A stretch of 64,000 nt of DNA from Bacilli bacterium. GTDB taxonomy: Bacteria; Bacillota_I; Bacilli_A; RF39; UBA660. The notes beneath the pieces were generated by a model. It was not told where the DNA came from and did no database searches. It saw only the letters and a list, made by a program, of their open reading frames with translations. The DNA is taken from contig JAFRQS010000032.1 of assembly GCA_017428495.1 (NCBI GenBank), positions 1 to 64,000 on the forward strand. Reading direction: 5' to 3'. A program made the translations under genes and the position numbers. The first letter of the stretch is position 1. Each line of letters opens with the position of its first letter. Positions 37,801 through 53,806 of the stretch are shown here, one piece after another.

Positions 37801-38791
37801 TGTATTGACAGAAGAAATAATTAAAAAATTATTAGAGGATAATTACAATTTGAAAGTAGCAAGTGTTGAAAGAATAAATAGAGGTAGTGCAAATATATAC
37901 AATATAGATAATAAGTATATATTGAAAGAATTTAGTAGTGATAGGGAAGTTTCTTCTATAGAAAAAGAATATAATGTAATAAAACATCTTGATAATAAAG
38001 GATTAAAAGTACCTACATATATTGAAACAAAATATGGTAATCCATATATAATATATGAAGGTAGAATAATAATACTTCAAGTGTATCTAGAAGGATATGC
38101 AATGCCAAATAATACAGGAGATTATGCTAAAACAATTGAATCAGCAACTATATTGGGTAAATTAACTAAAGCATTAGAAGATTATGAATTAGATAGTACT
38201 TATAATGATTATCCATCAAAAGAGGCATTAGAAGAAGGCATTGTTAAATTAAGTGATTTAATTAATAAGATTAAAGATGATAATCCATATAAAGATAAAA
38301 TAATATCCGATTTAAAAAGAAGAATAGAAATATCAAAAGAACTATTAGATTTTAATTTTGAAGATATTAAAAAAGTAACATTAAAAATATGTCATGGAGA
38401 TTATTCTGTACAACAATTAATATATAATGATAATGAGGAAACTGCAATAATAGATTTTGAAACAGTAAGAAAAATGCCAATAGATTGGGAAATAATAAGA
38501 AGTTATAGTTATATAGATAAAGAATGTAAAGATGGAGTATTTAATTTAAATACATTTATTGATTATGTTAAAGAAGTAAAGAAATATATTAAATTAACAA
38601 AAAAAGATTTAAAATATATGCCATACATCTATATATTTCAATTAGTATCAAGTACATTTGGTTATAAACAATATAATAATGATTATTCTAAAACGTCTTT
38701 ATTAGATTTTGCATTCTTTAGAACTAATCTATGTAATTACTTATATGATAATTTAGAACTAATATCAAAAGAATTATTAAATATAAAATAA
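37787..38791 (+). CDS. CotS/APH-type small-molecule kinase
   Basis: A kinase-fold protein of 334 residues related to spore-coat CotS and aminoglycoside/choline kinases. The N-lobe reads GSANIYNIDNKYILKEF with the ATP-binding Lys; the catalytic loop is CHGDYSVQQLIY near residue 204 and the metal Asp is in AIIDFE near residue 225. The next block DWEIIRSYSYIDKECKDG is shared almost unchanged with the kinase at 48285-49256. It overlaps the transglutaminase-like gene by 14 bases. The substrate is unknown; sugars, cyclitols and choline-like alcohols are typical for the fold. Confidence 0.88.
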   Translation: MLENSVLTEEIIKKLLEDNYNLKVASVERINRGSANIYNIDNKYILKEFSSDREVSSIEKEYNVIKHLDNKGLKVPTYIETKYGNPYIIYEGRIIILQVYLEGYAMPNNTGDYAKTIESATILGKLTKALEDYELDSTYNDYPSKEALEEGIVKLSDLINKIKDDNPYKDKIISDLKRRIEISKELLDFNFEDIKKVTLKICHGDYSVQQLIYNDNEETAIIDFETVRKMPIDWEIIRSYSYIDKECKDGVFNLNTFIDYVKEVKKYIKLTKKDLKYMPYIYIFQLVSSTFGYKQYNNDYSKTSLLDFAFFRTNLCNYLYDNLELISKELLNIK

Positions 38792-38883: not shown

Positions 38884-40167
38884 ATGAAAAATAGAAAAGC
38901 ATTTACAATAGTTGAATTATTAGCAGTAATAGTAATATTAGCAATAATATTAATAATAGCTGTACCACAGATAATGAATGCAATAAAAATAGCTAAATTA
39001 AAGAGTATAGAAGGTAGTGCAAGATTAATAGCAAAGAATGCAGAAGAAGATTATTATTCACAAAAATTGATAAATAAAAGATATAATGCAACAAGTATAC
39101 CATGCTCTGATGTGGCAAAATTAAGCGATGATTATTCGAGTTGTAGTATTACATATGATAATAGTGGAACGGCAACAGTAACATTAAAGGGAGCATCAGG
39201 TGGTAAGTTTGATAAAATTAAATGTACAGGGACAAAAGCTAATATAAATTGTAGTGAAATAACACCACTTCCAGGATACACTGATGCAGTAGAATTATTA
39301 ACATCTAAAATAGGAACAGGTGGTCTAATAAAAGATGATCATGATGAATTAAGATATCAAGGAGAGACAGTAGATAATTATGTAACATTTAATGATGAAG
39401 TAGCAAAATGGAGAATAGTAGGATTATTTAACGTTGATGGAGAACAAAGAGTAAAATTGGTAAGAAAAGATTCAATATGGAATAATTACTCATGGGATAC
39501 AAGTGATTCATCTGTAAATAGGGGAGAAGGAATAAATCAATGGGGACCATCAGGAACATATGAAGGTGCAGATTTAATGAGAGAACTAAATGGAGATTAT
39601 TTGAATTCAACACTATCAGTAGATGCAAATTGGTATGATGGATCGAATAACTCATTAGGAAGTGAAAATTTCGATAAGAATTATGTATTAAAAGAGAGCG
39701 CACAAGAACTAATAGGAGATGCAACATGGTTCTTAGGCGGAGTAGCATATAATAGTACAGTAACACTAGCAGATGCATATATTCAAGAAAGAGGAGAACA
39801 AGGAAAGATGTGTACACAAGGTGCAACATATTGTAATGATACAGTAACTAGAACATACACATGGACTGGTAAAGTAGGATTAATATATTCAAGTGACTAT
39901 GGGTATGCATCAGGAAATAGTAACTGTGCAACAAACATAGCATCGTATAATCCGTATTGTGATACAAATTGGATGGGTGATTATGGATGGACAATTTCTC
40001 CTCAGCGTGACTCTAGCAGTGCCTTCTATGTGTGGAATGCGGATTCTCTTATGTACGGCGTCGAAGCATCCGTTCCTTGTCCCGTTCACCCATCAGTATA
40101 TTTGATTTCAGGAGTTCAAATGAAAGGCTCTGGTACAACTGCTGATCCATATGTTTTTGCAGAATAA
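38884..40167 (+). CDS. Type IV prepilin-like surface protein 1 with variable C-terminal domain
   Basis: 427 residues. The class III signal KNRKAFTIVELLAVIVILA has the prepilin-peptidase site (A before FT-x-x-E, with Glu at +5) and a long hydrophobic stem helix, so it should enter a type IV pilus or pseudopilus. Residues 30-130 form a small head domain shared with prepilin 2. Residues 140-427 are a second domain with YGWTISPQ and an ending SVYLISGVQMKGSGTTADPYVF, a plan seen in proteins with the variable DUF6273-like end. Within it, 39996-40091 is about twice as GC-rich as the rest. No pilus assembly genes are in the window. Confidence 0.87.
   Translation: MKNRKAFTIVELLAVIVILAIILIIAVPQIMNAIKIAKLKSIEGSARLIAKNAEEDYYSQKLINKRYNATSIPCSDVAKLSDDYSSCSITYDNSGTATVTLKGASGGKFDKIKCTGTKANINCSEITPLPGYTDAVELLTSKIGTGGLIKDDHDELRYQGETVDNYVTFNDEVAKWRIVGLFNVDGEQRVKLVRKDSIWNNYSWDTSDSSVNRGEGINQWGPSGTYEGADLMRELNGDYLNSTLSVDANWYDGSNNSLGSENFDKNYVLKESAQELIGDATWFLGGVAYNSTVTLADAYIQERGEQGKMCTQGATYCNDTVTRTYTWTGKVGLIYSSDYGYASGNSNCATNIASYNPYCDTNWMGDYGWTISPQRDSSSAFYVWNADSLMYGVEASVPCPVHPSVYLISGVQMKGSGTTADPYVFAE
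39996..40091 (+). other. GC-rich, NNY-rich patch: candidate hypervariable region
   Basis: By count, 40001-40090 has 48 G or C in 90 bases (53%) in a genome of roughly a quarter G+C. Codons from CGT at 40005 onward are mostly of the form NNY (CGT GAC TCT AGC AGT, TAC GGC GTC, TCC GTT CCT TGT CCC GTT CAC), unlike the A/T-ending codons on either side. It falls shortly before the conserved VYLISG end block. This is the footprint expected from adenine-targeted mutagenesis of AAY codons or from cassette exchange. Confidence 0.55.
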
Positions 40168-40189
40168 ACAGGTTTATTCCTGTTTTTAT
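40166..40189 (+). terminator. Terminator of prepilin gene 1
   Basis: AAACAGG-TTTATT-CCTGTTT with T-run, overlapping the stop codon. Confidence 0.8.
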
Positions 40190-40197
40190 TTACAAAA

Positions 40198-40447
40198 ATA
40201 TGATAATTTAGAACTAATATCAAAAGAATTATTAAATATAAAATAAAAAACACAAATAAATTATATTTGTGTTTTTATTATTAATAATTGAGAAAATGAG
40301 GTTTTAATAGTATAATAAAAATATAAGATAGGAGTGTATTATGAAAAATAGAAAAGGATTTACATTAGTAGAATTATTAGCAGTAATAACAATATTATCA
40401 GTAATACTTATAATAGCGGTACCACAGATAATGAATACAATTAAAGT
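40198..40447. repeat. Direct repeat copy 2 (kinase end, terminator, promoter, prepilin start)
   Basis: Second copy of 38743-38990. It starts with 46 bases that match the last codons and stop of the kinase gene, although no kinase gene lies here; the terminator (40247-40276) and promoter (TTGAGA 40288-40293, TATAAT 40311-40316) are repeated. It marks a tandem duplication. Confidence 0.85.
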
Positions 40448-41141
40448 TTCAAAATTAGGGGCAATGGAAAGCAGTGCAAAAATAATAGCAAAAGATGCAG
40501 AAAAGAAATATTATATGAAGAAAATGGAAGATAAAAACTATGTGGCTGCTGGAATACCATGTACAGATATAACTAAAATGAGTAGTGATTATGGAAGTTG
40601 CACAATATCATATTCTAATAATGGAATAGCAACAGTAACATTAAAAGGTGCAACTGGTGGTAAATTTGATGGAATAACTTGTACAGGTACAAAAAATAAT
40701 ATGAGTTGTGTTGAAAGAGTTCCAGGTCCTCCAGTGTGGATATATGCATATGGTAATATAACATCAGTAGATCAAGGAGTAGAAAATTATGCAGATTTAG
40801 ATAAACAAATTTTTATAAGATTTAACAAAAATGATTTGAGTGAAAAAAATATATGTATAATGTATAAAAGTGCAGAAAGAAGTGGTGAACCTGCTTGTTT
40901 GGTATCTAAAGATACATATAATACAAGAAATAATGAAAATTCAGAATGGAGTCAAATAGAAGCATTATTTGGTTCAAGTAACTGCGTTGAAGAAGTAAAT
41001 TCTATAAGATGCTATGTTAGTTTACCAGAGTATTGGCAGTGTATTACATCTAGTAATAGTACAAGTTGTACCTTACTAAATCAAAATACAGAAGAAGAAT
41101 GTAGTTTGAAATCTGATGGCACTGTTAGTTGTATTCAATAA
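40341..41141 (+). CDS. Type IV prepilin-like surface protein 2
   Basis: 266 residues. It shares the prepilin signal KNRKGFTLVELLAVI and the first 130 residues with prepilin 1 (for example ATVTLKGA and GGKFDGITCTGTK), then diverges completely into a shorter Cys-containing domain (CIMYKSAERSGEPACL, RCYVSLPEYWQCI). Six or more Cys in the tail suggest disulfides. It looks like a duplicated scaffold carrying a different tip. It has its own promoter and terminator. No variable GC-rich patch is seen in this copy. Confidence 0.85.
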   Translation: MKNRKGFTLVELLAVITILSVILIIAVPQIMNTIKVSKLGAMESSAKIIAKDAEKKYYMKKMEDKNYVAAGIPCTDITKMSSDYGSCTISYSNNGIATVTLKGATGGKFDGITCTGTKNNMSCVERVPGPPVWIYAYGNITSVDQGVENYADLDKQIFIRFNKNDLSEKNICIMYKSAERSGEPACLVSKDTYNTRNNENSEWSQIEALFGSSNCVEEVNSIRCYVSLPEYWQCITSSNSTSCTLLNQNTEEECSLKSDGTVSCIQ

Positions 41142-41150
41142 AATAAATTA

Positions 41151-41177
41151 AAATAGGAACAATGTTCCTATTTTTTT
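41151..41177. terminator. Bidirectional terminator between prepilin 2 and the LysR gene
   Basis: AAATAGGAAC-AAT-GTTCCTATTT with T-run; the LysR gene stops at 41168 within it. Confidence 0.8.
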
Positions 41178-42037
41178 ATTAATCCATTTAAGAAATATGA
41201 TATTGCTATGCTATGATATTTATTATTGTTTGTAAGAGCTACTAATTCTGATTTAGGTAGTTCTTCTTTTACTTTTATTTCATGTATTCCATCTATGTTT
41301 CTACCAAATTCTCTTATAACCATTCCAATTCCAACTCCTGCTTTAACAAAGTCTATTATGAAAGAATTTGATACTACGCTTAAGAAGTTATTAAGTTTAT
41401 GGTTTTGATAGAATTTATTTATTTCTGTAGTATTAACATTTATTATAAAGTTCTTATCTTTAATATCATGTACACTTATTGTCTTATCTAATTTATCCAT
41501 ATAATCATCACTACAGAATAATCCATATGTTAAATCCTCTATTTTATATCTAGTTATATTTGAATATTTATTAACATAGTTATAACTTGAAATTATTATT
41601 GCTATATCTATTGCGCCTTCTTTTATCTTTGTAATTAAGTTATTGTTTGTGTTATCTTCTACATATACGTGTACATTTGGATGCTCTTTTGTATATTTTT
41701 TTATATACTCAATTAAAAACATTCTAAGTACTGTTATAGATGTACCAATTCTTATATTCATTTTACCATCACTGATTATTTCATCCATAACATTTTTTGT
41801 TTCGTCTAATTGAAGCATAAGTGGTTTTACATATGCATAGAGTCTTTCTCCTTCTGTTGTAAGCTTAATACCACTATGGCTTCTGTTAAATAGGCTACTT
41901 CCAATTTCGTTTTCTAATATTTTTATTGTTTTTGTAATAGCAGGTTGCGAAATTAATAATTTTTCAGCAGCTTCTGTGATGCTTTTACTTTCTGCTACTA
42001 TGCAAAAAGTTTTATAGTATTCAAAACTTATATTCAT
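41168..42037 (-). CDS. LysR-type transcription regulator
   Basis: 289 residues: an N-terminal winged helix-turn-helix (FCIVAESKSITEAAEKL, then SQPAITKTIKILENE) and a periplasmic-binding-like effector domain (about 90-289). LysR regulators usually sense a pathway metabolite and control a divergent operon. Here the divergent operon is the nine-gene cluster starting at 42181, and two palindromes lie in between. ACCACCTC on the forward strand gives a GGTGGT ribosome site at its start. The effector is unknown. Confidence 0.93.
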   Translation of the reverse strand: MNISFEYYKTFCIVAESKSITEAAEKLLISQPAITKTIKILENEIGSSLFNRSHSGIKLTTEGERLYAYVKPLMLQLDETKNVMDEIISDGKMNIRIGTSITVLRMFLIEYIKKYTKEHPNVHVYVEDNTNNNLITKIKEGAIDIAIIISSYNYVNKYSNITRYKIEDLTYGLFCSDDYMDKLDKTISVHDIKDKNFIINVNTTEINKFYQNHKLNNFLSVVSNSFIIDFVKAGVGIGMVIREFGRNIDGIHEIKVKEELPKSELVALTNNNKYHSIAISYFLNGLIKK

Positions 42038-42172: not shown

Positions 42173-42184
42173 ATGCGCGTATGA
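42173..42184 (+). CDS. Three-codon mini-ORF overlapping the PHP gene start
   Basis: ATG CGC GTA TGA follows AGAGGTG (42164-42170) at the ideal distance, and its TGA overlaps the ATG of the PHP gene as ATGA. The site is better spaced for the mini-ORF than for the gene, so ribosomes may reach the gene by termination-reinitiation. Confidence 0.3.
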   Translation: MRV

Positions 42185-43005
42185 TAGACTTACATATTCA
42201 TTCAAAATTTTCAGATGGTGATAAAACAATTCCAGAGCTTATAGATATGCTTAAAAGAAAAAAAGTTGAATTATTCTCCATAACTGATCATGATAGTGTT
42301 GATAGCTTGAAAGTGCTCGAAAATATTCCAAACATTACTTATATACCAGGAGTAGAGATGAGTGCTGTAAGCGATGGTGTTAAGATGCATATCCTCGGAT
42401 ATGGTATAGATGATAATTCAAAGTTAAAATCTACATGTGAAATTATAAAGAAAACCAGAAAAGAACTTGTACTTGAAATATTAGAAGATTTAATAAAAAG
42501 GGGTTATAAATTTAGTGAAGAAGATCTAAGTTATTTCTATAATAGTGAAAGTTCTTGTATTGGAAAAGTAGAAATATCAAAGTTTTTAGTAAAAAATGGT
42601 TATGCTCTTAGTGTCAAAGATGCATTTTATGAAATATTAGGTAGATATAAAATAGGACCTAGGATAAGGAAAAATGCTGAACAAATAATTGATGAGATAC
42701 ATGAAAAAGATGGTTTAGCAATACTTGCGCATCCTTTTGAAATAGTAAGAAAGCAAGGTGTAGAAATAGCACCAGTAATTGATGAACTTGAATATTATGG
42801 CTTAGATGGTGTAGAGGTTTTTACTACTAAACATAATAAAGAAGAAGAAAAGTATATGTATGATTTGTGTAGAAATAGGGGATTATTGATAAGTGGTGGT
42901 AGTGATTATCATGGACCACTTACTAAGCCTAACATACAAATTTGTGATAGTGTGAAAGGGGATGAAATTAGTGAAAAGATTAAGAAAAAAAGAATTAAAC
43001 ATTAA
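42181..43005 (+). CDS. PHP-domain phosphoesterase (TrpH-like)
   Basis: A metal-dependent phosphoesterase of 274 residues. Motifs of the PHP fold are intact: DLHIHSKFSDGD (metal His pair), ITDHDS, PGVEMSA, LAHPFE and SGGSDYHG. An insert of about 90 residues in the middle matches TrpH/RNase AM-type proteins, which hydrolyse 3',5'-nucleoside bisphosphates; another phosphorylated small molecule is possible given the neighbours. It opens the nine-gene cluster, divergent from the LysR gene, and overlaps the HprK-like gene by about 40 bases. Confidence 0.9.
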   Translation: MIDLHIHSKFSDGDKTIPELIDMLKRKKVELFSITDHDSVDSLKVLENIPNITYIPGVEMSAVSDGVKMHILGYGIDDNSKLKSTCEIIKKTRKELVLEILEDLIKRGYKFSEEDLSYFYNSESSCIGKVEISKFLVKNGYALSVKDAFYEILGRYKIGPRIRKNAEQIIDEIHEKDGLAILAHPFEIVRKQGVEIAPVIDELEYYGLDGVEVFTTKHNKEEEKYMYDLCRNRGLLISGGSDYHGPLTKPNIQICDSVKGDEISEKIKKKRIKH

Positions 43006-44008
43006 TGGAGTTCTCTTTAATATATATACAGAGGATGTTGAGGAAGTAGAGAAATATTTTAGTAATTTTATAATTACATGTAATGAAAAGGTAACTGCTA
43101 CTTATAATATTTATTTTGATAGTGATAAAGATATATTATTATCTTTGATAAGTAATTTTGATAAATCTAAGTCAGTAGTATTGCCTACGTTTAAAAATCA
43201 AATTCATTATAAAAATGGTAATAAGTTTTTAATAGATACAGAAGAATATATGTGTATTAAAACTAATGATAAGAATTATAAAATATTTGGTACAGTAAAA
43301 GGTTTAAGTTGGGTTGTAAGAGAATTATTAATAAGAGAAATGGAAGATAAAGGATACTTTTATATGCATGGTACAGGTATTGAAGTGTTTGATAAAGGAA
43401 TATTGCTATTAGGTAATTCTGGTAGTGGTAAAACAACTTTTATGACCAAGTTAAGTGAATTAGATACTAAAGAAAAATTTATATCTAATGATAGGGTATT
43501 TGTAAAAAATAGAATGATGCATTATTATCCACTTCCAATTATATATGCAATGGGAACTGCGAGAGCAAATAGAAATTTAGATGAATATTTTAGAAGAACT
43601 CAAGCATTAGAAAAAAGAAGGGGAAAAGATTATACTACTTGTGGAGATGGTGCTAAGTGTGATGTGCCATTAAAAGATATTCCAAGAATATTTCCAAATA
43701 TAGAAAATGTGGATAAGAGTAAAATTGATTTGATTGTATTCCCTAGAATAACTGATAGAGAAAGGTTTGAATACTTAAGTAGTGAGGATGCAATAAGAAG
43801 ATTAAGTGAAACTAATTTTACTCCAAATGATAGTGAAAATGAAAGAAAAGAATGGTTAAGATATAGAACAGTACCTATAGAAGAAATAGAAAGAAAGAAA
43901 AAAGAATTTCATCAAGAATTGATAAGTCATATTCCAATTATAGAAGTTGAATATACTAGGGATACTAGTAGTTCATATTTAGAAAAGGTATTAAAGAAGA
44001 CTTTATGA
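42962..44008 (+). CDS. HprK-like kinase 1
   Basis: 348 residues. A P-loop GNSGSGKTTF near residue 158 followed by ISNDRVFV (the Asp of the kinase) and a C-terminal helical part fit the HPr kinase/PEPCK-like catalytic domain. The protein lacks the N-terminal domain and the second signature of true bifunctional HPr kinase/phosphorylase, and carries instead a 140-residue domain of unknown fold. HprK-like proteins in biosynthetic clusters phosphorylate Ser of peptides or small molecules. An inserted stretch DYTTCGDGAKCDVP has two Cys. GTG at 42971, with AAAGGGG at good spacing, may be the true start. Confidence 0.75.
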   Translation: MKLVKRLRKKELNINGVLFNIYTEDVEEVEKYFSNFIITCNEKVTATYNIYFDSDKDILLSLISNFDKSKSVVLPTFKNQIHYKNGNKFLIDTEEYMCIKTNDKNYKIFGTVKGLSWVVRELLIREMEDKGYFYMHGTGIEVFDKGILLLGNSGSGKTTFMTKLSELDTKEKFISNDRVFVKNRMMHYYPLPIIYAMGTARANRNLDEYFRRTQALEKRRGKDYTTCGDGAKCDVPLKDIPRIFPNIENVDKSKIDLIVFPRITDRERFEYLSSEDAIRRLSETNFTPNDSENERKEWLRYRTVPIEEIERKKKEFHQELISHIPIIEVEYTRDTSSSYLEKVLKKTL

Positions 44009-44715
44009 TAAGTGTCATTACAGATGAAGTATCAAGTGATATTGATTCTTTAATAAAAATATTAAAAGATACAAAATTGGAATATGTAGAATTAAGAAAA
44101 ATAAATGATAAATACTTGTTTGAAATAGATGCTGGTGAATTAAAACTAATAAGTAAGAAATTTGAATTGAATAATTATAAAATTTCATTAATAGATAGTC
44201 CTATTGGTAAACATAAATATAGTTATGATAAAGAAGATAAATTAATTATTAAATATATAAATATTTGTAAGATATTTAAATGTAAATATTTGAGAATATT
44301 TACAGATGTTTGTGATTTAAAAAAATATAATGATATAGCAAAAGAAAACAATATAATTTTATTAATTGAGAATGAAAAGGGTACAAAAGGTGAAAGTTAT
44401 ATATATTTAAAAGAATTAATGAATAAAAAGTATAGCAATATAAAATTATTATATGATGCTGAAAATTATTATAGTTTAAATTTAGATTATATAGAAGCTT
44501 TGAGAGTGTTAAAAAATGATATAGTTTATATTCATTTAAGAGATGTTAAAGATAGTAAATTTGTTTATTTATATGATGGTGATATAGATATAGACAAGAT
44601 ATTAAGTATGATTGATAAAGATACAATAGTATCTTTAGAAACACATTTACCAATGTGTAGTGATTTAGAAAAAGAAGTTTTATTTAAAGAGAGTATGAGG
44701 AGGATTTATGAATAA
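44005..44715 (+). CDS. TIM-barrel sugar isomerase/epimerase-like protein
   Basis: 236 residues of the xylose-isomerase-like (AP endonuclease 2) TIM barrel. The metal-site pattern is visible as LLIENEKGT (Glu), LLYDAENYY (Asp), VYIHLRDVKDSK (His, Asp) and a final SLETHLP (Glu, His). Family members isomerise or epimerise sugars, inosose or keto acids. The N-terminal half is shorter than usual. It overlaps both neighbours by four and eight bases. Confidence 0.8.
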   Translation: MISVITDEVSSDIDSLIKILKDTKLEYVELRKINDKYLFEIDAGELKLISKKFELNNYKISLIDSPIGKHKYSYDKEDKLIIKYINICKIFKCKYLRIFTDVCDLKKYNDIAKENNIILLIENEKGTKGESYIYLKELMNKKYSNIKLLYDAENYYSLNLDYIEALRVLKNDIVYIHLRDVKDSKFVYLYDGDIDIDKILSMIDKDTIVSLETHLPMCSDLEKEVLFKESMRRIYE

Positions 44716-46123
44716 GAATTTTTATGGAAATATAGATGATTTAAAAAAGAAATTAGATGGTTTAAAAGTTAGTTATAAGATTAAAGGGGATAAAATAATA
44801 ATAGGTGATGGATATATTAAATTTAAAGAAAAAGAGTTACCTATAAGAAGTTTTTCTGTTACTAGATTTGCAGATCCAGGATTAGAACTTATGGCTGTAG
44901 ATGTGGATTATGATTTAGTAAATAAAATATGTTTAGCATATTCAGATTCTGAAATAGAATCTATTGTAAGAGATATGCCTGTAATAGATTGGTATAGTTC
45001 AAATCATAAGAATACATTAAATAATGTTGCTATTATTTGGAGAGATCACTTTCTTGAAGAAAATGTAGGTTTATTAAATGGTTTTGTAAATATGGGTGTT
45101 AGACCTGAAAATATACTTGCTATCGATAAAGGAGATAGTACAAAGCATAGATTTGAAATAACAGAAACTTTTAAGAAGATGGGATTTAATGTAAGTGTAC
45201 TTGATAATACAGATGTAGATAATGAAAAGTTAATGAAAATTGGTGAAGAATTAATATTTGATTTTATTAATAAAAGAAAAGATTTAAAAGTAGTTGTATT
45301 AGATGATGGTGCTATAGTAACTAAGATATTAGATAAAATACATTTTGATAATGTAGTAGGTGTAGTAGAGCTTACTGAAATGGGATTAAGAAGAATAAGA
45401 CCAAATGAAGATAAATTATTATATCCAGTACTTAATGTTGCAAAGACTAAATTAAAAAGGCATATTACTTATACCGAAATATCTAGCAGTATATTTACAA
45501 GAATAATAGAATTATTGGCAGGAGAAAAATTAGTAGGTAGAAGTGTAGTAATGTGTGGTTATGGGGACTTAGGCGAAATACTTGCAGATAGATTAAGAAG
45601 TTATGGAGTTAGAGTAACAGTAGTAGATGTAGATGTACTAAGACTTATAATTGCAGCTGAAAGGGGCTTTACAACTTATAAAAACTGTTATGATGCAGTT
45701 AAAAATGAAAAACCATTTATGATAGTTGGTGCATCTGGCTATAAGAGTATTAGTGAAGATGTTATTAAAATGCTTCCTGATTATGGATATGTAACAAGTG
45801 GTGCTACTGCTGATCTTCATGCATTTAGAGATTTTGAAGCACGTGGTGAAGTATTTAAGAAAATAGATAAGTATGGAACTCAATATTATGTGTTTGATAA
45901 ACATGTAGATGTATTAGGAAATGGTAGAAGTGTTAATTTATTTGATTCTGAAGCAATTCCTAATAAGAGCAATGATGTATTTAAAGCTGCTCAACTTCTT
46001 ACAGTTTATAATATGATTAATAAAGAAACTCTAGAAAATAAATTGGAAGTAAATATAGTAGATGAATGGATTAGTGAATCAGGCATATTAGATAAATACT
46101 ATAGTTTATATATGGAGAAATAA
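44708..46123 (+). CDS. S-adenosylhomocysteine-hydrolase-like NAD-binding protein
   Basis: 471 residues. The central Rossmann fold VVMCGYGDLGEILADRL near residues 278-294 and the following VTVVDVDVLRLIIAAERGF are arranged as in SAH hydrolase, and GNGRSVNLFDSEAIPN near residue 405 matches that enzyme's closing GRLVNLG block. The N-terminal half includes an AIIWRDHFLEENVGLLNGF stretch like its substrate domain, but the usual catalytic residues are not obvious. It may oxidise and eliminate at a ribose-like or sugar hydroxyl on another substrate. AGGAGG precedes the start. Confidence 0.65.
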   Translation: MNKNFYGNIDDLKKKLDGLKVSYKIKGDKIIIGDGYIKFKEKELPIRSFSVTRFADPGLELMAVDVDYDLVNKICLAYSDSEIESIVRDMPVIDWYSSNHKNTLNNVAIIWRDHFLEENVGLLNGFVNMGVRPENILAIDKGDSTKHRFEITETFKKMGFNVSVLDNTDVDNEKLMKIGEELIFDFINKRKDLKVVVLDDGAIVTKILDKIHFDNVVGVVELTEMGLRRIRPNEDKLLYPVLNVAKTKLKRHITYTEISSSIFTRIIELLAGEKLVGRSVVMCGYGDLGEILADRLRSYGVRVTVVDVDVLRLIIAAERGFTTYKNCYDAVKNEKPFMIVGASGYKSISEDVIKMLPDYGYVTSGATADLHAFRDFEARGEVFKKIDKYGTQYYVFDKHVDVLGNGRSVNLFDSEAIPNKSNDVFKAAQLLTVYNMINKETLENKLEVNIVDEWISESGILDKYYSLYMEK

Positions 46124-47571
46124 TGAAAGATTTTCATATTCATCTTAAAAAAGGTGTAACTGATTATGATGTGATGAAACAGTATATAGATAGGTGCATA
46201 GAACTTGGAATAGATGAAGTAATATTCCTAGATCATGGTAACAGAACATCACCAAATCATAAGCCAGTATTAAATAACAAAAAAATAATAAAAGAGTTTC
46301 TAAAGTTAATAGATAGAGCAAGAAGTGAATATAAAAATATAACTATACATAGTGGTATAGAAACAGATTACTTTCCAGATAAAGAAAAACAAGATAATGA
46401 AATAGAACTTATGAATAGTGGATTTGATTATGTGGTATCTAGTGTACATGGAGTTAAATATCTTAATTTAGATGATACAGGATACTATAAAGCAATGTTA
46501 GATACAGTAAAAAAATATCCACTTAATATACTTGCTCATTTAAAATTATATGATGATTATAAAGAACATGATAAAATTATTAATCAAATATTAAAAGAGT
46601 GTAAAAAGAAAAATGTAATGATGGAAATAAATACTAGTGATAGAAGTATTTGGAATATAGAACAATTAAATTATATGTTAGATTTATTTAAAAAATATGA
46701 TATTAAATACACAATAGGAAGTGATGCACATAAAGTAGGAGAACTAGGTGTAAACTATGATTTAATGTATTCATATTTAGATAATAAAATAAATAAAGAA
46801 GATAGAGAAATAGAGTATAACATAGTGAGTAGAGGAACGGAAAAAAGTGGTTCAAAAGGATATATGGCTATTACTAAGAAAATAAATAATTCAAGATATT
46901 TAATTGTTCAAGGCCATGAAAATAAAAATATAACTTGCTTTAAAGATAGTTTAAAATGTTATGACAATGATATAGAAACAATTGCATTTTCAAGATTTGA
47001 GATGATTGGTGCTTTATCATTAAATAGAATTAATTTTAAAGACGATATATTATTATGTGGATTAGGGAATATAGGAATAGGTGTATTAGTATATTTATTA
47101 GATAATAATTATAAAAATATTGATATATATACAAAGGATATTAAGCCCTATATAAAAAGCATGATAAGAAAGTTGAATAAAAGATATGATTCTAATATTA
47201 AATTAGTAGATGAAATAGAAGAACATGAAACTTATATTGATACTACTGGAGTAAGTTCTGTAATAGAAATGATTTTTAAAGATATCAAGACATTTAAAAC
47301 AATATTTTTAATTGGAACTCCTAGAGAAAGTAAGTATTTTATAGATCCATTATTAATTCATAGGAATAATTTAATGGTAATTGGTGGACATGAATTAAGA
47401 GGAGTAGAAAAGACTGATAGAGTTGAATTATTTGAAAAGTTATTAAAAGTTAATAGTAGTAATGAATTAATAAAACAAATTGTTCACATCAATAGATATA
47501 AAAAGGATATATTTGAAAATATATTGAAAGAAAAAAATCATTTTATAGAGGTGGTAAAATATGACGATTAA
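46123..47571 (+). CDS. PHP phosphoesterase fused to an MDR-type dehydrogenase domain
   Basis: 482 residues. The N-terminal part (1-230) is a histidinol-phosphatase-type PHP domain: MKDFHIHLKKG, FLDHGNR, HSGIETDYF, SSVHGV, ILAHLKLY and GSDAHK. The C-terminal part (about 240-482) resembles the cofactor-binding half of medium-chain dehydrogenases: LLCGLGNIGIGVL, YIDTTGVSS and TIFLIGTPRESK. The catalytic zinc half of an MDR enzyme is not clear. One chain would remove phosphate and oxidise or reduce the same intermediate. I know of no described PHP-MDR enzyme. Confidence 0.75.
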   Translation: MKDFHIHLKKGVTDYDVMKQYIDRCIELGIDEVIFLDHGNRTSPNHKPVLNNKKIIKEFLKLIDRARSEYKNITIHSGIETDYFPDKEKQDNEIELMNSGFDYVVSSVHGVKYLNLDDTGYYKAMLDTVKKYPLNILAHLKLYDDYKEHDKIINQILKECKKKNVMMEINTSDRSIWNIEQLNYMLDLFKKYDIKYTIGSDAHKVGELGVNYDLMYSYLDNKINKEDREIEYNIVSRGTEKSGSKGYMAITKKINNSRYLIVQGHENKNITCFKDSLKCYDNDIETIAFSRFEMIGALSLNRINFKDDILLCGLGNIGIGVLVYLLDNNYKNIDIYTKDIKPYIKSMIRKLNKRYDSNIKLVDEIEEHETYIDTTGVSSVIEMIFKDIKTFKTIFLIGTPRESKYFIDPLLIHRNNLMVIGGHELRGVEKTDRVELFEKLLKVNSSNELIKQIVHINRYKKDIFENILKEKNHFIEVVKYDD

Positions 47572-48316
47572 TATTAAAAATATTTTAATCAATGTAGATA
47601 GCACTTTCGATATAGTCTTTAATAGATTAAAACAATTTGAAATAAGTGATGTTAGTACTGATAATAAGATAATAATTAATGATAATTTGATAGATATATC
47701 TGTGTTAGATTATAAATTAAAGATAAAAGAAAAAATAAATACAACAGATATATATCCAATACTTAATAATTTAATAGCGTATCTTATAAATGATGAAAAT
47801 AATCTATATATTCATTCGGTAGTTATTAGCAAAAATAATAAAGGAATTTTAGTGTTGGGAGATTTTAAAGTTGGTAAAAGTGCACTTGCTATAGAAGCAC
47901 AGAATTATGGATATGAAGTTAATTCTGCAGATCAGACATGGATTAAAACTAATGAGATGGTTCTTGGAAGTTCATTTAATAAGGATAAAAATGGGATATC
48001 ATTTCTAGATAAAAAAAATGTAAATAAAAAGGTAAAATTAGAAAGAATAATTATATTAAAGGGGATATCAACAAATGGAGAATTAAGTATCCAAAAGATA
48101 GAAAATAGAGATTATTATGTTAAGAATATATTTAGATATTCTAATTGGCATTATGATATGCCACTACTTACAAAATATATTAAGCTAAAAGATACAGGGG
48201 AAAAAATATTAAAATTTATAAATAAATTAAATATTGAAGCTTATTTCATTTGTGGTGATGAAAGAAAAATTATGGAGGCTATTTGTGATAGAAAAGAAGG
48301 TATTAAACAAGACTAA
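47561..48316 (+). CDS. HprK-like kinase 2
   Basis: 251 residues, shorter than kinase 1. P-loop GDFKVGKSALA near residues 101-111, then VNSADQTWI where kinase 1 has ISNDRVFV; both have NxxD at the position of the kinase Asp. HSVVISKNNKGILVLG before the loop mirrors kinase 1 (HGTGIEVFDKGILLLG). The two are distant paralogues with different substrates likely. GAGGTGG precedes the start, and the gene overlaps its neighbour on both sides. Confidence 0.65.
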   Translation: MTINIKNILINVDSTFDIVFNRLKQFEISDVSTDNKIIINDNLIDISVLDYKLKIKEKINTTDIYPILNNLIAYLINDENNLYIHSVVISKNNKGILVLGDFKVGKSALAIEAQNYGYEVNSADQTWIKTNEMVLGSSFNKDKNGISFLDKKNVNKKVKLERIIILKGISTNGELSIQKIENRDYYVKNIFRYSNWHYDMPLLTKYIKLKDTGEKILKFINKLNIEAYFICGDERKIMEAICDRKEGIKQD

Positions 48317-49256
48317 AATTAAAAAGATATTTAAAGATTATTATAATATTAAAGTAAATGATATTCAGTTAGTAAGTGGTGGTTCTGCAGAGATATATAA
48401 AGTAGATAATTATATATTAAAGTTATATCAAAAAAAGTATAATGAAGAGCAAATATCAAAAGAAGTAAATGTAATTAATTATTTAAAAAATAGAGAATTC
48501 AAAGTCCCTAATTATTTAAAAACTATTGATGATAAATATTTAGTAAAAGTAGATGATAGATATTTAATTGTACAAGAATTTATAAATGGAATTACCAAGG
48601 ATAAATTTATGGCTACTAAAAAAGAAATAAAAGAATGTGGATATCTTCATGGACTTTTAGTGAAGAATTTAATGGATTATAAAGTAGATGATAAAGAAGA
48701 TGGGAATTGGTATGATTTTAATAGTAATATAGAAAAATTAAATGAAATAATTAAATTAGGTAATAATAAATTAATTGTCTCAGATTTAAGTAAAAAGATT
48801 GAAATGATGAATAGTTTTGAAGATGATTTAAAAGATATAGATAAAATATCATACTATACATCACATGGTGATTTTAGTTATTTACAATTTATATATGATA
48901 AAGGCAAAGTAAATGCAATTATAGATTTTATAAGAGTAAAGAGATTACCAATTGTATGGGAAATAATTAGAAGTTATAGTTATATGGATAAAAAATGTAA
49001 AGATGCAAAAATAGATATTGATAATTTAATTTTATATGTTAAAGAATTTATGAAGAATGTAAAATTAACTAAATATGATTTAAAATATATGCCATATGTT
49101 TATATGTGTCAATTATTTAGAAGTACATATGGATACAAAGAATATTATAAAAAAGATAACAATAATATTTTAGAATTTGCGCACTTTAGGACTCAGTTAT
49201 GTGAATACTTATTTAAGAATAGTAAAGAAATATCAAGGAGGTTAGAAGAATTATGA
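48285..49256 (+). CDS. CotS/APH-type kinase, paralogue of the kinase at 37787
   Basis: 323 residues. N-lobe GGSAEIYKVDNYILKLY with ATP Lys, catalytic loop SHGDFSYLQFIYD, metal site AIIDFIRVKR (the usual Asp is followed by Phe), then WEIIRSYSYMDKKCKD and YMPYVYMCQLFRSTYGY, both shared with the first kinase. It probably phosphorylates a hydroxyl of a small molecule. The start is GTG at 48285, seven bases after TGGAGG; an upstream in-frame ATG (48234) lies deep in the previous gene without a site. It overlaps the HprK-like gene by 32 bases. Confidence 0.87.
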   Translation: MIEKKVLNKTKIKKIFKDYYNIKVNDIQLVSGGSAEIYKVDNYILKLYQKKYNEEQISKEVNVINYLKNREFKVPNYLKTIDDKYLVKVDDRYLIVQEFINGITKDKFMATKKEIKECGYLHGLLVKNLMDYKVDDKEDGNWYDFNSNIEKLNEIIKLGNNKLIVSDLSKKIEMMNSFEDDLKDIDKISYYTSHGDFSYLQFIYDKGKVNAIIDFIRVKRLPIVWEIIRSYSYMDKKCKDAKIDIDNLILYVKEFMKNVKLTKYDLKYMPYVYMCQLFRSTYGYKEYYKKDNNNILEFAHFRTQLCEYLFKNSKEISRRLEEL

Positions 49257-50191
49257 AAGATATTATATTAGTTGGAAGGGGTAAAGCTAGTAGAATACAT
49301 ACTATGTCATATAATAAATTTGAAAAAGTACCTAATTTATATTATGCTGATGTAGATATACCTATAAAAAAGATATTAAAGGATAATAAACTAGATGTCG
49401 ATAATGTAATAGTTGATATTGTAACACCAAAAGAAGTATTTGTAGAAGTAATTGAAACTTGTGAATCATTGGGTTTATATAACATAATAGTAGAAAAACC
49501 ATTTGTAATAGAAGAGGATTTCTTTAAAAAACATCCAAAATTAAATATAGTTATGATTCAAAATTACATATATTCATTAACTACTAATTTTGTTAAAGAT
49601 TATTTAGATAAGAATAAATTAAAAATAAAATCAATAATGACTAATTTTTCTAAAAATAGAATAAATGAAAGTATTAATATGCGTGGTATGAGTAGTAAAA
49701 TAACAGAGAACTATGAAATAGAAGTACCACATCAAGTTTATATTTGTGATTATTTATTGGGTAGTAGAAGTGAACTATTAATGCTTGAACAAAAAGATAT
49801 GCAAAATATTGATAGAACTTTAAAAAATCATGGATATAGTTTCTCAATGCTAAAAAATAAAAACGTAATAATAAGTCATCAATGTGATTTAACATCTAAT
49901 ACTTTGCATAAAGGAATGACAATTTATTGTGAGGATAATGTAGTAATAAGTGTTGAATATTCAATATATGATAAAGAATTAGCGTGTTTAAGAAATAGTA
50001 GAGTAGTTATATATAAAGATAAAAATAAAATAATGGATGCTGAGATTGTTGATGACAATATGTATTATTGTTTAAAAGATTTTTATGAATATTTTAGCGG
50101 TAAAAAGATTAATCCGGTATATAAGAAAAGAATAGAAGATTTTAGTATAATAATGAAAGAATATGCAAGCTTTAGTAGTAAGTATTGCTAG
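49253..50191 (+). CDS. Gfo/Idh/MocA-like oxidoreductase, divergent
   Basis: 312 residues. The N-terminus MKDIILVGRGKASRIHT stands where the GxGxxG nucleotide loop should be but has only part of it. VEKPFVIEED near residue 83 is the EKP motif of Gfo/Idh proteins. The C-terminal half is a mixed sheet domain with an NIDRTLKNHGYSF stretch. These enzymes oxidise or reduce sugar and cyclitol hydroxyls with NAD(P). It overlaps the kinase gene (ATGA) and ends just after the ribosome site of the next gene. Confidence 0.7.
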   Translation: MKDIILVGRGKASRIHTMSYNKFEKVPNLYYADVDIPIKKILKDNKLDVDNVIVDIVTPKEVFVEVIETCESLGLYNIIVEKPFVIEEDFFKKHPKLNIVMIQNYIYSLTTNFVKDYLDKNKLKIKSIMTNFSKNRINESINMRGMSSKITENYEIEVPHQVYICDYLLGSRSELLMLEQKDMQNIDRTLKNHGYSFSMLKNKNVIISHQCDLTSNTLHKGMTIYCEDNVVISVEYSIYDKELACLRNSRVVIYKDKNKIMDAEIVDDNMYYCLKDFYEYFSGKKINPVYKKRIEDFSIIMKEYASFSSKYC

Positions 50192-50199
50192 GAGGAACT

Positions 50200-51519
50200 A
50201 TGAAAGTTACAGTTGCTGGTACTGGTTATGTAGGACTTGTTACAGGTGTTTGTTTAGCACATATAGGTCATGAAGTCACATGCCTTGATGTAGTTGAAGA
50301 AAAAATTGAAATGTTAAAGAATGGTAAAAGTCCAATATATGAACCGGATTTAGAAGATTTAATGTTAAAAAATAAAGATAGACTAAATTTTACAACTAAT
50401 TATAAAAAAGCATATAAAGATGCAGATGTAATATTTATAGGTGTAGGAACACCAGAAAGAATAGATGGTACTGCAAATTTAGATTATGTTAATGAAGTTG
50501 CAAGACAAATTTCTGAATCTATAGATAAGGATACAGTGGTAGTAATTAAATCAACTGTTCCAATAGGTACTAATGATAGAATAGAAGAATACCTAAATGG
50601 AAATATAAAAAATGGTATTAAGGTAAGAGTAGCAAGTAATCCAGAATTTTTAGCTGAAGGAACCGCAGTAAAAGATACTTTATATGCATCTAGAATTGTA
50701 ATTGGTACTGAAGATAAGATTGCTGAAAAGGTACTTAAAGAGTTATATTTACCATTAACAAAAAAGCCATATAATGTGCCATTATTATCTATGGATAGAA
50801 GATCTGCTGAAATGGTAAAATATGCATCAAATGATTTTTTAGCACTTAAAATATCTTACATAAATGAAATAGCTAACTTCTGCGAGAGTGTAGGTGCGAA
50901 TATAAAAAATGTAACATTAGGAATGGGTTATGATCCAAGAATAGGAAATAAATTTTTAAATTCAGGAATAGGGTATGGTGGATCATGCTTTCCAAAAGAT
51001 ACAAAAGCATTACATTGGTTGAGCAAAAGTTTAGATTGTGAACTTAAAACTGTAAAAGCATGTATAGAAGTTAATAAAGATCAAAAATTAAGGTTATTTC
51101 ATAAATTGAAAAATTCATTATATTTGAAGGATTTGGAAGTTGCTATATTAGGTGTTACATTTAAACCAAATACAGATGATTTACGTGATGCTCCTAGTAT
51201 AGATAATGTAGAACTATTACTTGAATATGGTGCTAATGTTACGGTATATGATCCAATAGGACTTGATAATTTTAAGAAAAGATTTAAAGATAGAGTAAAT
51301 TATGCAAGTAGTATTAATGAAGCAATAAAAGATAAAGAAGCTGTAATGATTATGACAGAGTGGAAAGAAATTAAAGAATATGATTTAAATAATTATGTTA
51401 AATATATGAATAAAGCAAATATATTTGATGGAAGAAATTGCTATGATTTAGATGATTTTAAAAATATAGATGCATATTATGTATCTATAGGAAGAAAAGA
51501 TGTAGGAAGTTTAAAATAA
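50200..51519 (+). CDS. UDP-glucose/GDP-mannose-type nucleotide sugar dehydrogenase
   Basis: Oxidises C6 of a nucleotide sugar to the acid with two NAD (UDP-glucose to UDP-glucuronate is the usual reaction). 439 residues with VAGTGYVGLVTGVCLA (NAD loop), IKSTVPIGT, NPEFLAEGTAV, and the catalytic Cys in GYGGSCFPKDT near residue 263; DLRDAPS in the C-terminal domain contacts the sugar nucleotide. ATG at 50200 follows TAGGAGG. It is the last gene of the cluster, with a terminator. The sugar it uses is not certain (Ugd, HasB or TuaD-like). Confidence 0.93.
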   Translation: MKVTVAGTGYVGLVTGVCLAHIGHEVTCLDVVEEKIEMLKNGKSPIYEPDLEDLMLKNKDRLNFTTNYKKAYKDADVIFIGVGTPERIDGTANLDYVNEVARQISESIDKDTVVVIKSTVPIGTNDRIEEYLNGNIKNGIKVRVASNPEFLAEGTAVKDTLYASRIVIGTEDKIAEKVLKELYLPLTKKPYNVPLLSMDRRSAEMVKYASNDFLALKISYINEIANFCESVGANIKNVTLGMGYDPRIGNKFLNSGIGYGGSCFPKDTKALHWLSKSLDCELKTVKACIEVNKDQKLRLFHKLKNSLYLKDLEVAILGVTFKPNTDDLRDAPSIDNVELLLEYGANVTVYDPIGLDNFKKRFKDRVNYASSINEAIKDKEAVMIMTEWKEIKEYDLNNYVKYMNKANIFDGRNCYDLDDFKNIDAYYVSIGRKDVGSLK

Positions 51520-51529
51520 CTTCCTTTTT
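51504..51529 (+). terminator. Terminator AGGAAGTT...AACTTCC at the cluster end
   Basis: Seven-base stem overlapping the last codons of the dehydrogenase, followed by five T. Confidence 0.65.
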
Positions 51530-51602: not shown

Positions 51603-51761
51603 ATGAGTATGGGAAAAGTAGTAATAGACGGAGTAGAAACTAAGTTTTCATTTGATATTGATGAAGATGAAATTGAAGTCAATGAAAAAAAATTAGATAA
51701 TACTATCGATTTAAAAGAGGTAATAGAAAGCATTAATGGACAGGATACAGAGAGCCAATGA
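51603..51761 (+). CDS. Small acidic protein, 52 residues
   Basis: Starts after TAGGTGAAT, reads MSMGKVVIDGVETKFSF then DIDEDEIEVNEKKLDN and ends NGQDTESQ. It is strongly acidic and has no Cys. The first half looks like a beta hairpin. It overlaps the next gene by 26 bases, so translation is coupled. I recognise no family. It could be a chaperone-like or regulatory partner of the large protein that follows; there is no Cys/Ser/Thr core to make it a lanthipeptide precursor. Confidence 0.65.
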   Translation: MSMGKVVIDGVETKFSFDIDEDEIEVNEKKLDNTIDLKEVIESINGQDTESQ

Positions 51762-53103
51762 TTTCTTGCGTTTAATTGCTGAAATATCAAAAAATGGCAT
51801 ATTAATTGATTCAAACTTAGTATATTCTAATTTAATTACTCTTGGAACCGAAAAAAAATTAATAGATACTTACTTTACTACATGGCAAAACAGGGATGCA
51901 AATAATCCAAATATAGATGTATTTGTACAACCAGATTGGAAATGTTTTTGTCAATTTAAATCAAAAAATGCAACTAGAGACTTTGATGATATGCTTAAAA
52001 TATATATACCCATAGATGAAAGTCATATTTATCATGGCGTAAATAAAATATTTGATTATATTTCTAGAAATAATATATCACATAAATCAAAAGTAGCTAC
52101 TCATACTAGGTTTGATGATTTAGTAATAAGAGTTGATGACGTTGAAGCATTATCGGATATAAGAAAATTTGTAGAAAATGATGGATATATAATTGAAGGA
52201 CTAATACAAACAAATCCATTTGCTATTTCTGATGGTATGATTTCATTCGCATGGGATGGTGATTTATCATATAATAGGGTAGTGTCAGAATGGATTAGTG
52301 AATATATCAATTCGATGCAAAATAATTTGGATGCTATTTCTTATGATTCATTTATTGATTATGTAGGAAAACAATATGAAGAAGTATTCGAACAAGGACA
52401 AGGTATAAATTCATTTTATAGAAGTAGAAAGATTAATAATAGTATTAATGATCTTGTAAATTATCAAAGAATTACAGAGTTATTACTTATATCGCTACAA
52501 AGAGATAGTAAATTATCGGATTTATATAAATTTTATGAGTATGTTAAATCACCGTATAGTAAAACAGAGGCATATGAAAATATAAAAAGACTAAAAAATA
52601 AAGATTCTTTGATAGTAGAAGAAATACCAGATGATGTAAAAGAAGCATTTGATTATGCATTTTTACAAATTTCTACAAAAGAGAGCCCAGAAGCAGCGGT
52701 ATTACGTTTTAAAAAATTTGTAAAAGATGGTAATTATGATTTGTTTACTAGAACTAATGGAGTTAGAGCTCTTATGCAGGAGACAATTAATATTCCTTTC
52801 ATAAATAGAATAATATATGAAGAACAAAAATCAGCGCTCATATCTTCATCTTTAGAAACATTAAAAAAGTATGATACTATTCAATTAGGAAGAGCAATAT
52901 TTGGTGTAGAAAATAATGATTATCGAAGTTTTACTAGTAGTAATGGTGCTAGAGAAAGATTAAGGCTTTGGGTAAGACCAGATGAGGTTTCAAATGTTGT
53001 TAAAAATATATTAATAGAAGAAGGATATACAGATATAAAACCATATGAGGAATATTGGGTATTTATGGAAATGATATCAAAATTAAATGGTAAAAGTAAA
53101 TAA
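51736..53103 (+). CDS. Hypothetical protein, 455 residues
   Basis: No family is recognised with confidence. Residues 60-165 contain KIYIPIDESHIYHGVNKIF, then SHKSKVATHTRFDDLVIRVDD: a lysine in SKVA, then R-x-D-D and V-I-R-V, spaced somewhat like the active region of HopA1-type lanthipeptide and phosphothreonine lyases. That comparison is weak. The rest is helical, with an acidic loop (VEEIPDDVKEAF). No signal or membrane segment. It begins within the small acidic gene and is followed after 10 bases by another unknown gene. Confidence 0.65.
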   Translation: MDRIQRANDFLRLIAEISKNGILIDSNLVYSNLITLGTEKKLIDTYFTTWQNRDANNPNIDVFVQPDWKCFCQFKSKNATRDFDDMLKIYIPIDESHIYHGVNKIFDYISRNNISHKSKVATHTRFDDLVIRVDDVEALSDIRKFVENDGYIIEGLIQTNPFAISDGMISFAWDGDLSYNRVVSEWISEYINSMQNNLDAISYDSFIDYVGKQYEEVFEQGQGINSFYRSRKINNSINDLVNYQRITELLLISLQRDSKLSDLYKFYEYVKSPYSKTEAYENIKRLKNKDSLIVEEIPDDVKEAFDYAFLQISTKESPEAAVLRFKKFVKDGNYDLFTRTNGVRALMQETINIPFINRIIYEEQKSALISSSLETLKKYDTIQLGRAIFGVENNDYRSFTSSNGARERLRLWVRPDEVSNVVKNILIEEGYTDIKPYEEYWVFMEMISKLNGKSK

Positions 53104-53113
53104 TGGAGGAATT

Positions 53114-53806
53114 ATGGGGGAATATTTATATGTAGCAACACAAATACAAGAAGTTATGGCAAATATAGAGGAATATGTAATACCTGAAAATAGAGAGATT
53201 ATCGAGTATCTTTGGGATATGAATATACTTACTACTCAAACTAATAATTATGAAAATGAATTCTCATGGATACAATTAGGGGAACTATCTGAAGAAAATG
53301 AAAAAATATTTTGGAAATTAGTAAATGAAATGATGGATTTAGATGAACGTACAGCGTCTAAGTTTACTACATATAGAGGAATAAGTGTACCAATAGTACC
53401 TGGTACAAGAGGTACATTTGATGATTTTAAATTATTAGTTGATCATTTAAAACCACAAGATGTTCAAAAAGATGGATATATGACAGAAGATGAATTTTTT
53501 ATAAAAATGGGTTTTTCTATGGTTATTGATAATCCAGAGTATGGTAAGGTTCCTGAACCAGAATATGAAGATTATAATGATGTAAAAAAATATCAAGAAG
53601 CTTGTAAAAAGTATAATGATTCATTGATAAGAAGAATAACTGTTGTAGACAGAACTAAAATTACAAAACCAATAGAAGAGTATTTAGAAGAAAATGATTA
53701 TAGCGGATGCTATGATAAAGAAGAAGGGAAAATATTCTATAATCAAAGACTATATGAAGGACATATGAGGTTCAAAAATAAAGAACAACCAAAAAAACAC
53801 CTATAA
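53114..53806 (+). CDS. Hypothetical soluble protein, 230 residues
   Basis: An acidic protein with no recognised family. Blocks such as EFSWIQLGELSEENEKIFW and YRGISVPIVPGTRGTFDDF look like a folded domain rich in Gly and aromatic residues; the C-terminal third is charged. The start at 53114 follows TGGAGGA. It closes the three-gene operon, and its end overlaps a terminator. Function is unknown; co-translation with the 52- and 455-residue proteins suggests one complex. Confidence 0.65.
   Translation: MGEYLYVATQIQEVMANIEEYVIPENREIIEYLWDMNILTTQTNNYENEFSWIQLGELSEENEKIFWKLVNEMMDLDERTASKFTTYRGISVPIVPGTRGTFDDFKLLVDHLKPQDVQKDGYMTEDEFFIKMGFSMVIDNPEYGKVPEPEYEDYNDVKKYQEACKKYNDSLIRRITVVDRTKITKPIEEYLEENDYSGCYDKEEGKIFYNQRLYEGHMRFKNKEQPKKHL

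Follow-up and report, generated by a model that had tools for sequence, protein, structure and literature searches.

The 64,000-nucleotide stretch of contig JAFRQS010000032.1 analysed here (the window), from a gut Bacilli bacterium, carries a cluster of nine genes. The odds are about even that this is a cassette, sporadic in distribution and probably spread by horizontal transfer, for the biosynthesis of a specialised metabolite, a small phosphorylated compound of sugar, cyclitol or nucleoside type. This reading builds on demonstrated features, which are the gene set itself, its conservation in two phyla, the enzyme families, the folds modelled for two of the proteins (genes 2 and 5), and the changed active site of the gene 4 protein, which resembles S-adenosylhomocysteine hydrolase (SAHH). 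The initial annotation of the cluster, which is partly supported overall, had proposed phosphate and NAD chemistry on a sugar-like compound; this remains the best explanation, with the class of the product deduced from the genes.

Conservation of the gene set in two phyla

All nine open reading frames (ORFs) are present on the + strand, each overlapping or touching the next, and they run, as first described, from a LysR-divergent region to a terminator-like hairpin (Table 1). The largest intergenic gap is 8 nt, directly 5' of the gene for UDP-glucose 6-dehydrogenase (UGD), and a Shine-Dalgarno-like sequence precedes most start codons. The family calls, checked with Pfam and NCBIfam, hold with uneven strength: Pfam cut-offs are exceeded by PHP (twice), AP_endonuc_2, AdoHcyase_NAD, APH and UGD, and the assignments of both HprK-like genes and the Gfo/Idh-like gene are weak at the sequence level, with gene 2 backed by a structure model and gene 8 by profile. 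The limits of the cluster had to be redrawn at both ends. Upstream, the unit does not start at gene 1 and extends to a second APH-like kinase gene (APH2), which is found solely in the two genus members having the cluster; in the window, the LysR gene and two pilin-like genes lie between APH2 and the operon. An APH homologous to APH2 lies directly 5' of the PHP gene in the Clostridia loci L010, L013, L014 and L015. Downstream, UGD, first counted as a member proper, was rejected from the core and is a recurrent accessory, because it is missing from the cluster of the closest relative, G002.

Conservation of the neighbourhood, which had been named as a check of the proposal, was found: the gene order of the window, including the PHP-MDR fusion, is kept in a sister genome and in Clostridia metagenome-assembled genomes (MAGs). 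L010, L013, L014 and L015 are the Clostridia loci with this order, and most of the set is present, reshuffled, in L011, L012, L016 and L017. The SAHH-like gene is present in two of the four genomes of the genus (G000 and G002, among G000-G003), and in G002 a divergent 289-aa ORF (L008 10219-11088) occupies the LysR position and has the same length as the window LysR. When 84,980 species were scanned with the SAHH alignment and a degenerate pattern, 52 loci emerged, 9 from Bacillota and 43 from Actinomycetota. The nine Bacillota MAG loci carry the enzyme-set cluster, and the actinomycete loci comprise 21 of class A, with the set or with part of it where the contig is cut, and 22 of class B, with the SAHH-Gfo pair only; contig ends truncate some of the loci that carry the set. 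Sampling of the phylum with a single SAHH-like protein as query returned the window itself only. The MDR profile served as an independent marker and revealed three further clusters in actinomycetes and one in G1327, a member of the same family as the window; 4/395, 1/391 and 2/395 genomes were positive in samples drawn around a known carrier, which is counted in.

Actinomycete carriers, soil bacteria not related to the gut host, include Streptomyces, Nocardiopsis and Catenulispora, with a gene order unlike that of the window, and in most full actinomycete clusters the SAHH-like and Gfo/Idh proteins form one polypeptide. Some copies are on plasmids: tblastn of gene 4 against plasmids gave matches in Streptomyces and Kitasatospora only, several of these loci carry HprK-like, HprK-like, MDR, TIM barrel, APH, a SAHH-Gfo/Idh fusion and a third HprK-like gene, and the plasmid pSCL4 of S. 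clavuligerus, in a laboratory strain, has a copy of the cluster. The recurrent set consists of two to three HprK/PEPCK-fold kinases, MDR, TIM barrel, APH, SAHH-like and Gfo/Idh proteins, and usually a PHP or HAD phosphatase. As the gene order differs between the phyla, selection appears to act on the set and synteny is not simply inherited, and the sporadic distribution fits specialised rather than primary metabolism. That the genes are one functional unit is supported, with conservation far above chance.

The core is formed by MDR, APH, Gfo/Idh and two HprK/PEPCK-fold kinases, to which a phosphatase is mostly added. This is a PHP protein or, in actinomycetes, a HAD protein; L012, L016 and L076 have both. 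The SAHH-like protein and the TIM barrel are a frequent module, not a universal one, and UGD, the glycosyltransferase GT4, Nudix proteins, an AMP-binding enzyme and hydrolases are accessory. In G1327, whose cluster is L076, a SAHH-like relative was not found in the genome, the TIM-barrel match is weak, partial and outside the cluster, and a MoaA/SPASM-like radical SAM gene lies inside it at L076:12585-13532 (G1327:C5). This radical SAM enzyme appears to replace the SAHH-like protein and TIM barrel there, so that the module that modifies the scaffold seems exchangeable. Within another Bacilli version of the cluster, at L016:3586-6083, an AMP-binding (CoA-ligase-type) enzyme and an alpha/beta hydrolase are encoded, which suggests an acylated product at that locus.

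The class B loci, in which the SAHH-like gene adjoins Gfo/Idh (among them L018-L021, L023, L026, L029, L030, L032, L033 and L035), are a second uncharacterised biosynthetic cluster type. The three that were examined, L021, L033 and L035, have radical SAM or B12-type genes and a second Gfo/Idh-like gene, and some have transporter-like genes. An early-branching SAHH-like variant is encoded on a S. cadmiisoli plasmid (L004; NZ_CP030074.1 341650-370852), where its neighbours are genes for Gfo/Idh, an AMP-binding enzyme, an ABC transporter, radical SAM, asnB and a serine hydrolase.

Enzyme families and the altered SAHH-like active site

The signature of the SAHH-like family was taken from an alignment of 55 sequences and an alignment with PDB entries. 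Residues are given in human SAHH numbering, mapped by phmmer alignment and by the known layout of SAHH. Gene 4 belongs to the superfamily, as PF00670 is above its cut-off; with SAH hydrolase it shares the fold family, the NAD site (GxGxxG) and the equivalents of Lys186, Asp131, Glu156, Asn181 and Asn346, all of them invariant in the family. The difference lies in the catalytic set of Lys186, Asp190, Asn191, His301 and His353, of which Lys186 alone is kept: position 190 has Thr, Val, Gly or Ala instead of Asp, position 191 has Tyr instead of Asn, position 301 has Thr (one Ser) instead of His, and position 353 has Ile instead of His, in 55/55 sequences and in both phyla. The loss of these four residues, together with a score against the equivalog TIGR00936 that is too low (78/497.6 bits), led to the rejection of gene 4 as a SAH hydrolase. 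It represents a distinct family, in which NAD-dependent oxidation is probably kept and the adenosine- and SAH-specific parts are lost. In the SAHH-like tree, all ten sequences from Bacillota group together (100/100), far from those of the actinomycetes, so that nothing indicates a recent transfer from one phylum to the other; the tree has long branches and is midpoint-rooted, and the direction of transfer is not readable from it.

The Pfam HprK matches of genes 2 and 6 reach 24.7 and 17.7 bits against a cut-off of 33.3. Because of this weak assignment, the structure of gene 2 was modelled with AlphaFold (pLDDT 82, pTM 0.81), and the best solved structures found by Foldseek were ATP-dependent phosphoenolpyruvate carboxykinase (PEPCK; E 2.8e-8) and HPr kinase (E 3.3e-4). 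In gene 2, His136, the Walker A glycine-lysine and Asp177 are invariant in eight homologues; the conserved residues of gene 6, which blastp relates to gene 2 at 0.002-0.004, are His85, Gly105-Lys106 and Asp124. With the fold taken from the gene 2 model, and with the Walker A motif, His and Asp in place, both are predicted to be HprK/PEPCK-fold kinases. They share these features with HPr kinase and the HprK-related kinases A and B (TIGR04352, TIGR04355), but membership in those families (GAK) was rejected, since gene 2 scores far under the equivalog cut-offs (25.5/240 bits for HPr kinase and 30.1/200 bits for the HprK-related kinase), gene 6 scores lower, and the structure model of gene 2 is closer to PEPCK. 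An NCBIfam scan also gave a weak FomB match for gene 2 (1.2e-4); FomB-type kinases phosphorylate a phosphonate monophosphate. The APH-like kinase of gene 7 is 43% identical to the APH copy in L012.

Gene 1 is nearest to 3',5'-nucleoside-bisphosphate phosphatase/RNase RNM, with a score for NF041577 below the equivalog cut-off (120/400 bits). The PHP-MDR fusion claimed for gene 5 is confirmed by its structure model (pLDDT 85), which Foldseek matches to histidinol phosphatase (2yxo) and to a glucose/sorbitol-type MDR, whose relatives are polyol and glucose dehydrogenases. The same fusion occurs in L008, L010, L014 and L015, and PHP and MDR are separate genes in L012 and L016. The TIM barrel of gene 3, with invariant E122, D151, H177 and E212, has profile matches to structures of IolE, IolI and D-tagatose 3-epimerase, and Art22 is one of its structural relatives. 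Gene 8, for which there is no Pfam match, has an invariant EKP motif and His160, and profile comparison relates it to the actinomycete Gfo/Idh domain (Prob 77, E 2e-5). Pairs of Gfo/Idh and TIM-barrel proteins occur in C-glycoside cleavage.

Proposed chemistry and alternative explanations

In the proposed route, the APH-like kinase would phosphorylate a hydroxyl of a sugar-like precursor, and the HprK/PEPCK-fold kinases would add more phosphates or act on a second position. An oxidation that uses NAD, coupled to beta-elimination or epimerisation, may fall to the pair of Gfo/Idh and SAHH-like proteins. A keto intermediate may be isomerised or dehydrated by the TIM barrel, and the short MDR would provide a final or second redox adjustment. 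Phosphate would be stripped by PHP (or HAD, Nudix) phosphatases, the PHP or HAD being fused to or beside the MDR, and in some lineages a supply of UDP-uronate and a GT4 glycosyltransferase may extend the product. The recurrent set is free of transporter genes, which counts in favour of this reading. In its mechanism, the proposed route resembles sugar or nucleoside pathways that run through phosphorylated intermediates.

As the initial annotation had claimed, there is no known counterpart: a search of open-access papers, made with no characterised-cluster database, found no characterised pathway with this set. Partial likenesses exist and serve as precedents for the proposed chemistry. In angustmycin A biosynthesis, AgmF, a repurposed SAHH-family protein, is an NAD-self-sufficient dehydratase of a nucleoside sugar and works alongside a sugar epimerase and a HAD phosphatase, but its key catalytic residues are reported to be conserved and its substrate to be adenosine-like (PMC8599513), whereas the family described here lost four of them. 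That pathway has pyrophosphokinase and phosphoallulosyltransferase genes and is without HprK-fold kinases, MDR and Gfo/Idh; as no phosphosugar pyrophosphokinase, phosphoribosyltransferase-like or phosphoribohydrolase gene is among the cluster genes, an angustmycin-type pathway was rejected. In the puromycin, A201A and ADG pathways (Pur10, Pur7, Pur3), oxidation takes place on a phosphorylated intermediate, with subsequent removal of phosphate by a Nudix protein and a monophosphatase (PMC11641026, PMC9239236); Nudix-like genes also adjoin several of the clusters described here. As described, these pathways are without SAHH-like, TIM-barrel, MDR and HprK-like genes and use an aminotransferase, and a Pur4-type aminotransferase was not found among the scanned cluster genes, so that a puromycin/ADG-type pathway was rejected.

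Several points weigh against a biosynthetic cassette of this kind. Product, substrate and activities are deduced from the genes alone, and the order of the steps is conjecture. The HprK-fold kinases could act on proteins or peptides instead of small molecules, and no exporter or self-resistance gene is visible in the window. The Firmicutes and actinomycete TIM barrels do not align by profile comparison, both profiles being shallow, and their orthology therefore rests on context and a shared E-D-H-E spacing.

The main rival, which is rather unlikely, is that the product is an unusual sugar or polyol phosphate in activated form, with which a surface polymer is decorated, such as a capsule, a teichoic or teichuronic acid, or a glycolipid. 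The accessory genes favour this, as a TuaD-like UGD is part of the window operon and also adjoins the cluster in both L017 and L076. In L010, L014 and L015, another UGD subtype lies 3' of the cluster, together with a nucleotide-sugar epimerase-like gene. GT4 is present in L012, L016, L076 and several actinomycete clusters, L016 also has GT2, a hexapeptide transferase and the AMP-binding enzyme, and TarJ of S. aureus is among the structural matches of the MDR. However, the set is without a flippase, polymerase or priming transferase gene, and many homologous clusters have neither a glycosyltransferase nor UGD. Capsule synthesis had first been dismissed on the ground that no glycosyltransferase was included; this argument stands for the window lineage, in which no GT4 relative of this type was found, but not beyond it, because related clusters carry GT4.

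Breakdown of inositol, inositol phosphate or a rare sugar phosphate as a nutrient is improbable. Inositol and sugar-acid breakdown typically involves proteins of the TIM-barrel, Gfo/Idh and MDR families, the first two of which are shared with the Iol system (IolE/IolI-like), and LysR control, PHP phosphatases and the gut habitat of relatives would fit as well. However, the score for IolE (TIGR04379) is far under the cut-off (21.5/290 bits), no Iol equivalog or aldolase is present in the cluster, and there is no transporter among genes 1-9 or APH2, so that an inositol catabolic operon was rejected; the three to four ATP-spending kinases, the SAHH-like chemistry and the sporadic distribution also speak against breakdown.

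It is quite improbable that the product is a nucleotide analogue acting inside the cell in defence or signalling, with serial kinases giving a di- or triphosphate. The SAHH fold, the nucleoside-bisphosphate-phosphatase-like PHP, the serial kinases, the Nudix-like genes that adjoin several homologous clusters, and the radical SAM variant in L076 (MoaA/viperin superfamily) are compatible with it, but the adenosine-site residues His353 and Asp190 are lost, the flanks of the cluster in the window are mostly housekeeping genes, and a known anti-phage defence system was rejected, as PADLOC gave no match at 1e-3 for ten proteins. A ribosomally synthesised and modified peptide whose precursor is phosphorylated by the HprK-like kinases, as in the lasso peptides in whose reviews HPr-kinase-like proteins are mentioned (PMC8498205, PMC7533575), is highly improbable and largely refuted, since no precursor ORF, B1/B2 protease, asparagine-synthetase-like C protein or peptidase-transporter was found in the cluster, the overlapping genes leave no room for a precursor, and the remaining enzymes are sugar-type; nothing points to the peptide-linked product that had also been suggested.

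The reading as a cassette for a phosphorylated specialised metabolite may, tentatively and at somewhat less than even chances, be extended to a new biosynthetic class common to gut Bacillota with small genomes and actinomycetes that produce antibiotics. Its HprK/PEPCK-fold and APH kinases would act in series to give a sugar-like compound with several phosphates, and a new SAHH-derived oxidation-elimination enzyme or, in one relative, a radical SAM enzyme would remodel it.

Features of the locus and their significance

Table 1. Coordinates of the cluster, its regulator and its terminator in the window.
Feature	Position	Strand	Evidence
Second APH-like kinase (APH2)	37787-38791	+	Pfam APH 3.3e-9; outside the span of the initial annotation
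LysR-type regulator, divergent	41168-42037	-	Pfam HTH_1 5.5e-18, LysR_substrate 3.6e-18
Gene 1, PHP phosphoesterase	42181-43005	+	Pfam PHP 9.6e-7; NCBIfam NF041577 7e-35
Gene 2, predicted HprK/PEPCK-fold P-loop kinase	42962-44008	+	Structure model, Foldseek, motifs
Gene 3, xylose-isomerase-like TIM barrel	44005-44715	+	Pfam AP_endonuc_2 1.1e-10
Gene 4, SAH-hydrolase-like NAD-dependent enzyme, a distinct family	44708-46123	+	Pfam AdoHcyase_NAD 5.8e-10; PDB adenosylhomocysteinases 4.5e-13
Gene 5, histidinol-phosphatase-like PHP fused to short MDR dehydrogenase	46123-47571	+	Structure model, Foldseek
Gene 6, second HprK-like P-loop kinase	47561-48316	+	Pfam Hpr_kinase_C 0.0026, below cut-off
Gene 7, APH-like kinase	48258-49256	+	Pfam APH 1.7e-5; start uncertain (ATG 48258 or TTG 48234)
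Gene 8, Gfo/Idh-like oxidoreductase	49253-50191	+	Profile-profile E 2e-5; motifs
Gene 9, UDP-glucose 6-dehydrogenase (TuaD-like, UGD)	50200-51519	+	NCBIfam TIGR03026 2.9e-131
Intrinsic-terminator-like hairpin ending the operon	51504-51525	+	8-bp stem, then T-run

The two consecutive type-IV-pilin-like proteins between APH2 and the cluster (38884-41141, +) have near-identical N-termini. On the 3' side of the operon, a pair of genes (51736-53806, +) encodes an uncharacterised 455-aa protein without a Pfam match and a second uncharacterised protein of 239 aa with a sub-threshold DUF6108 match. Further upstream (31793-32575, +), a short S-adenosylmethionine-synthetase-like protein of 260 aa, much shorter than the usual MetK, matches the N-domain at 8e-11 and the C-domain weakly.

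As a set conserved in two phyla with a reshuffled order, the genes very likely make or modify one class of compound. In Streptomyces plasmid records, members of the set carry generic public labels, such as hypothetical protein, AP endonuclease or Gfo/Idh oxidoreductase. The cluster defines a SAHH-like family with a rewritten active site as well as a fusion of PHP and MDR by which two steps are joined; it may represent a route to specialised metabolites in gut genomes of 1-1.5 Mb.

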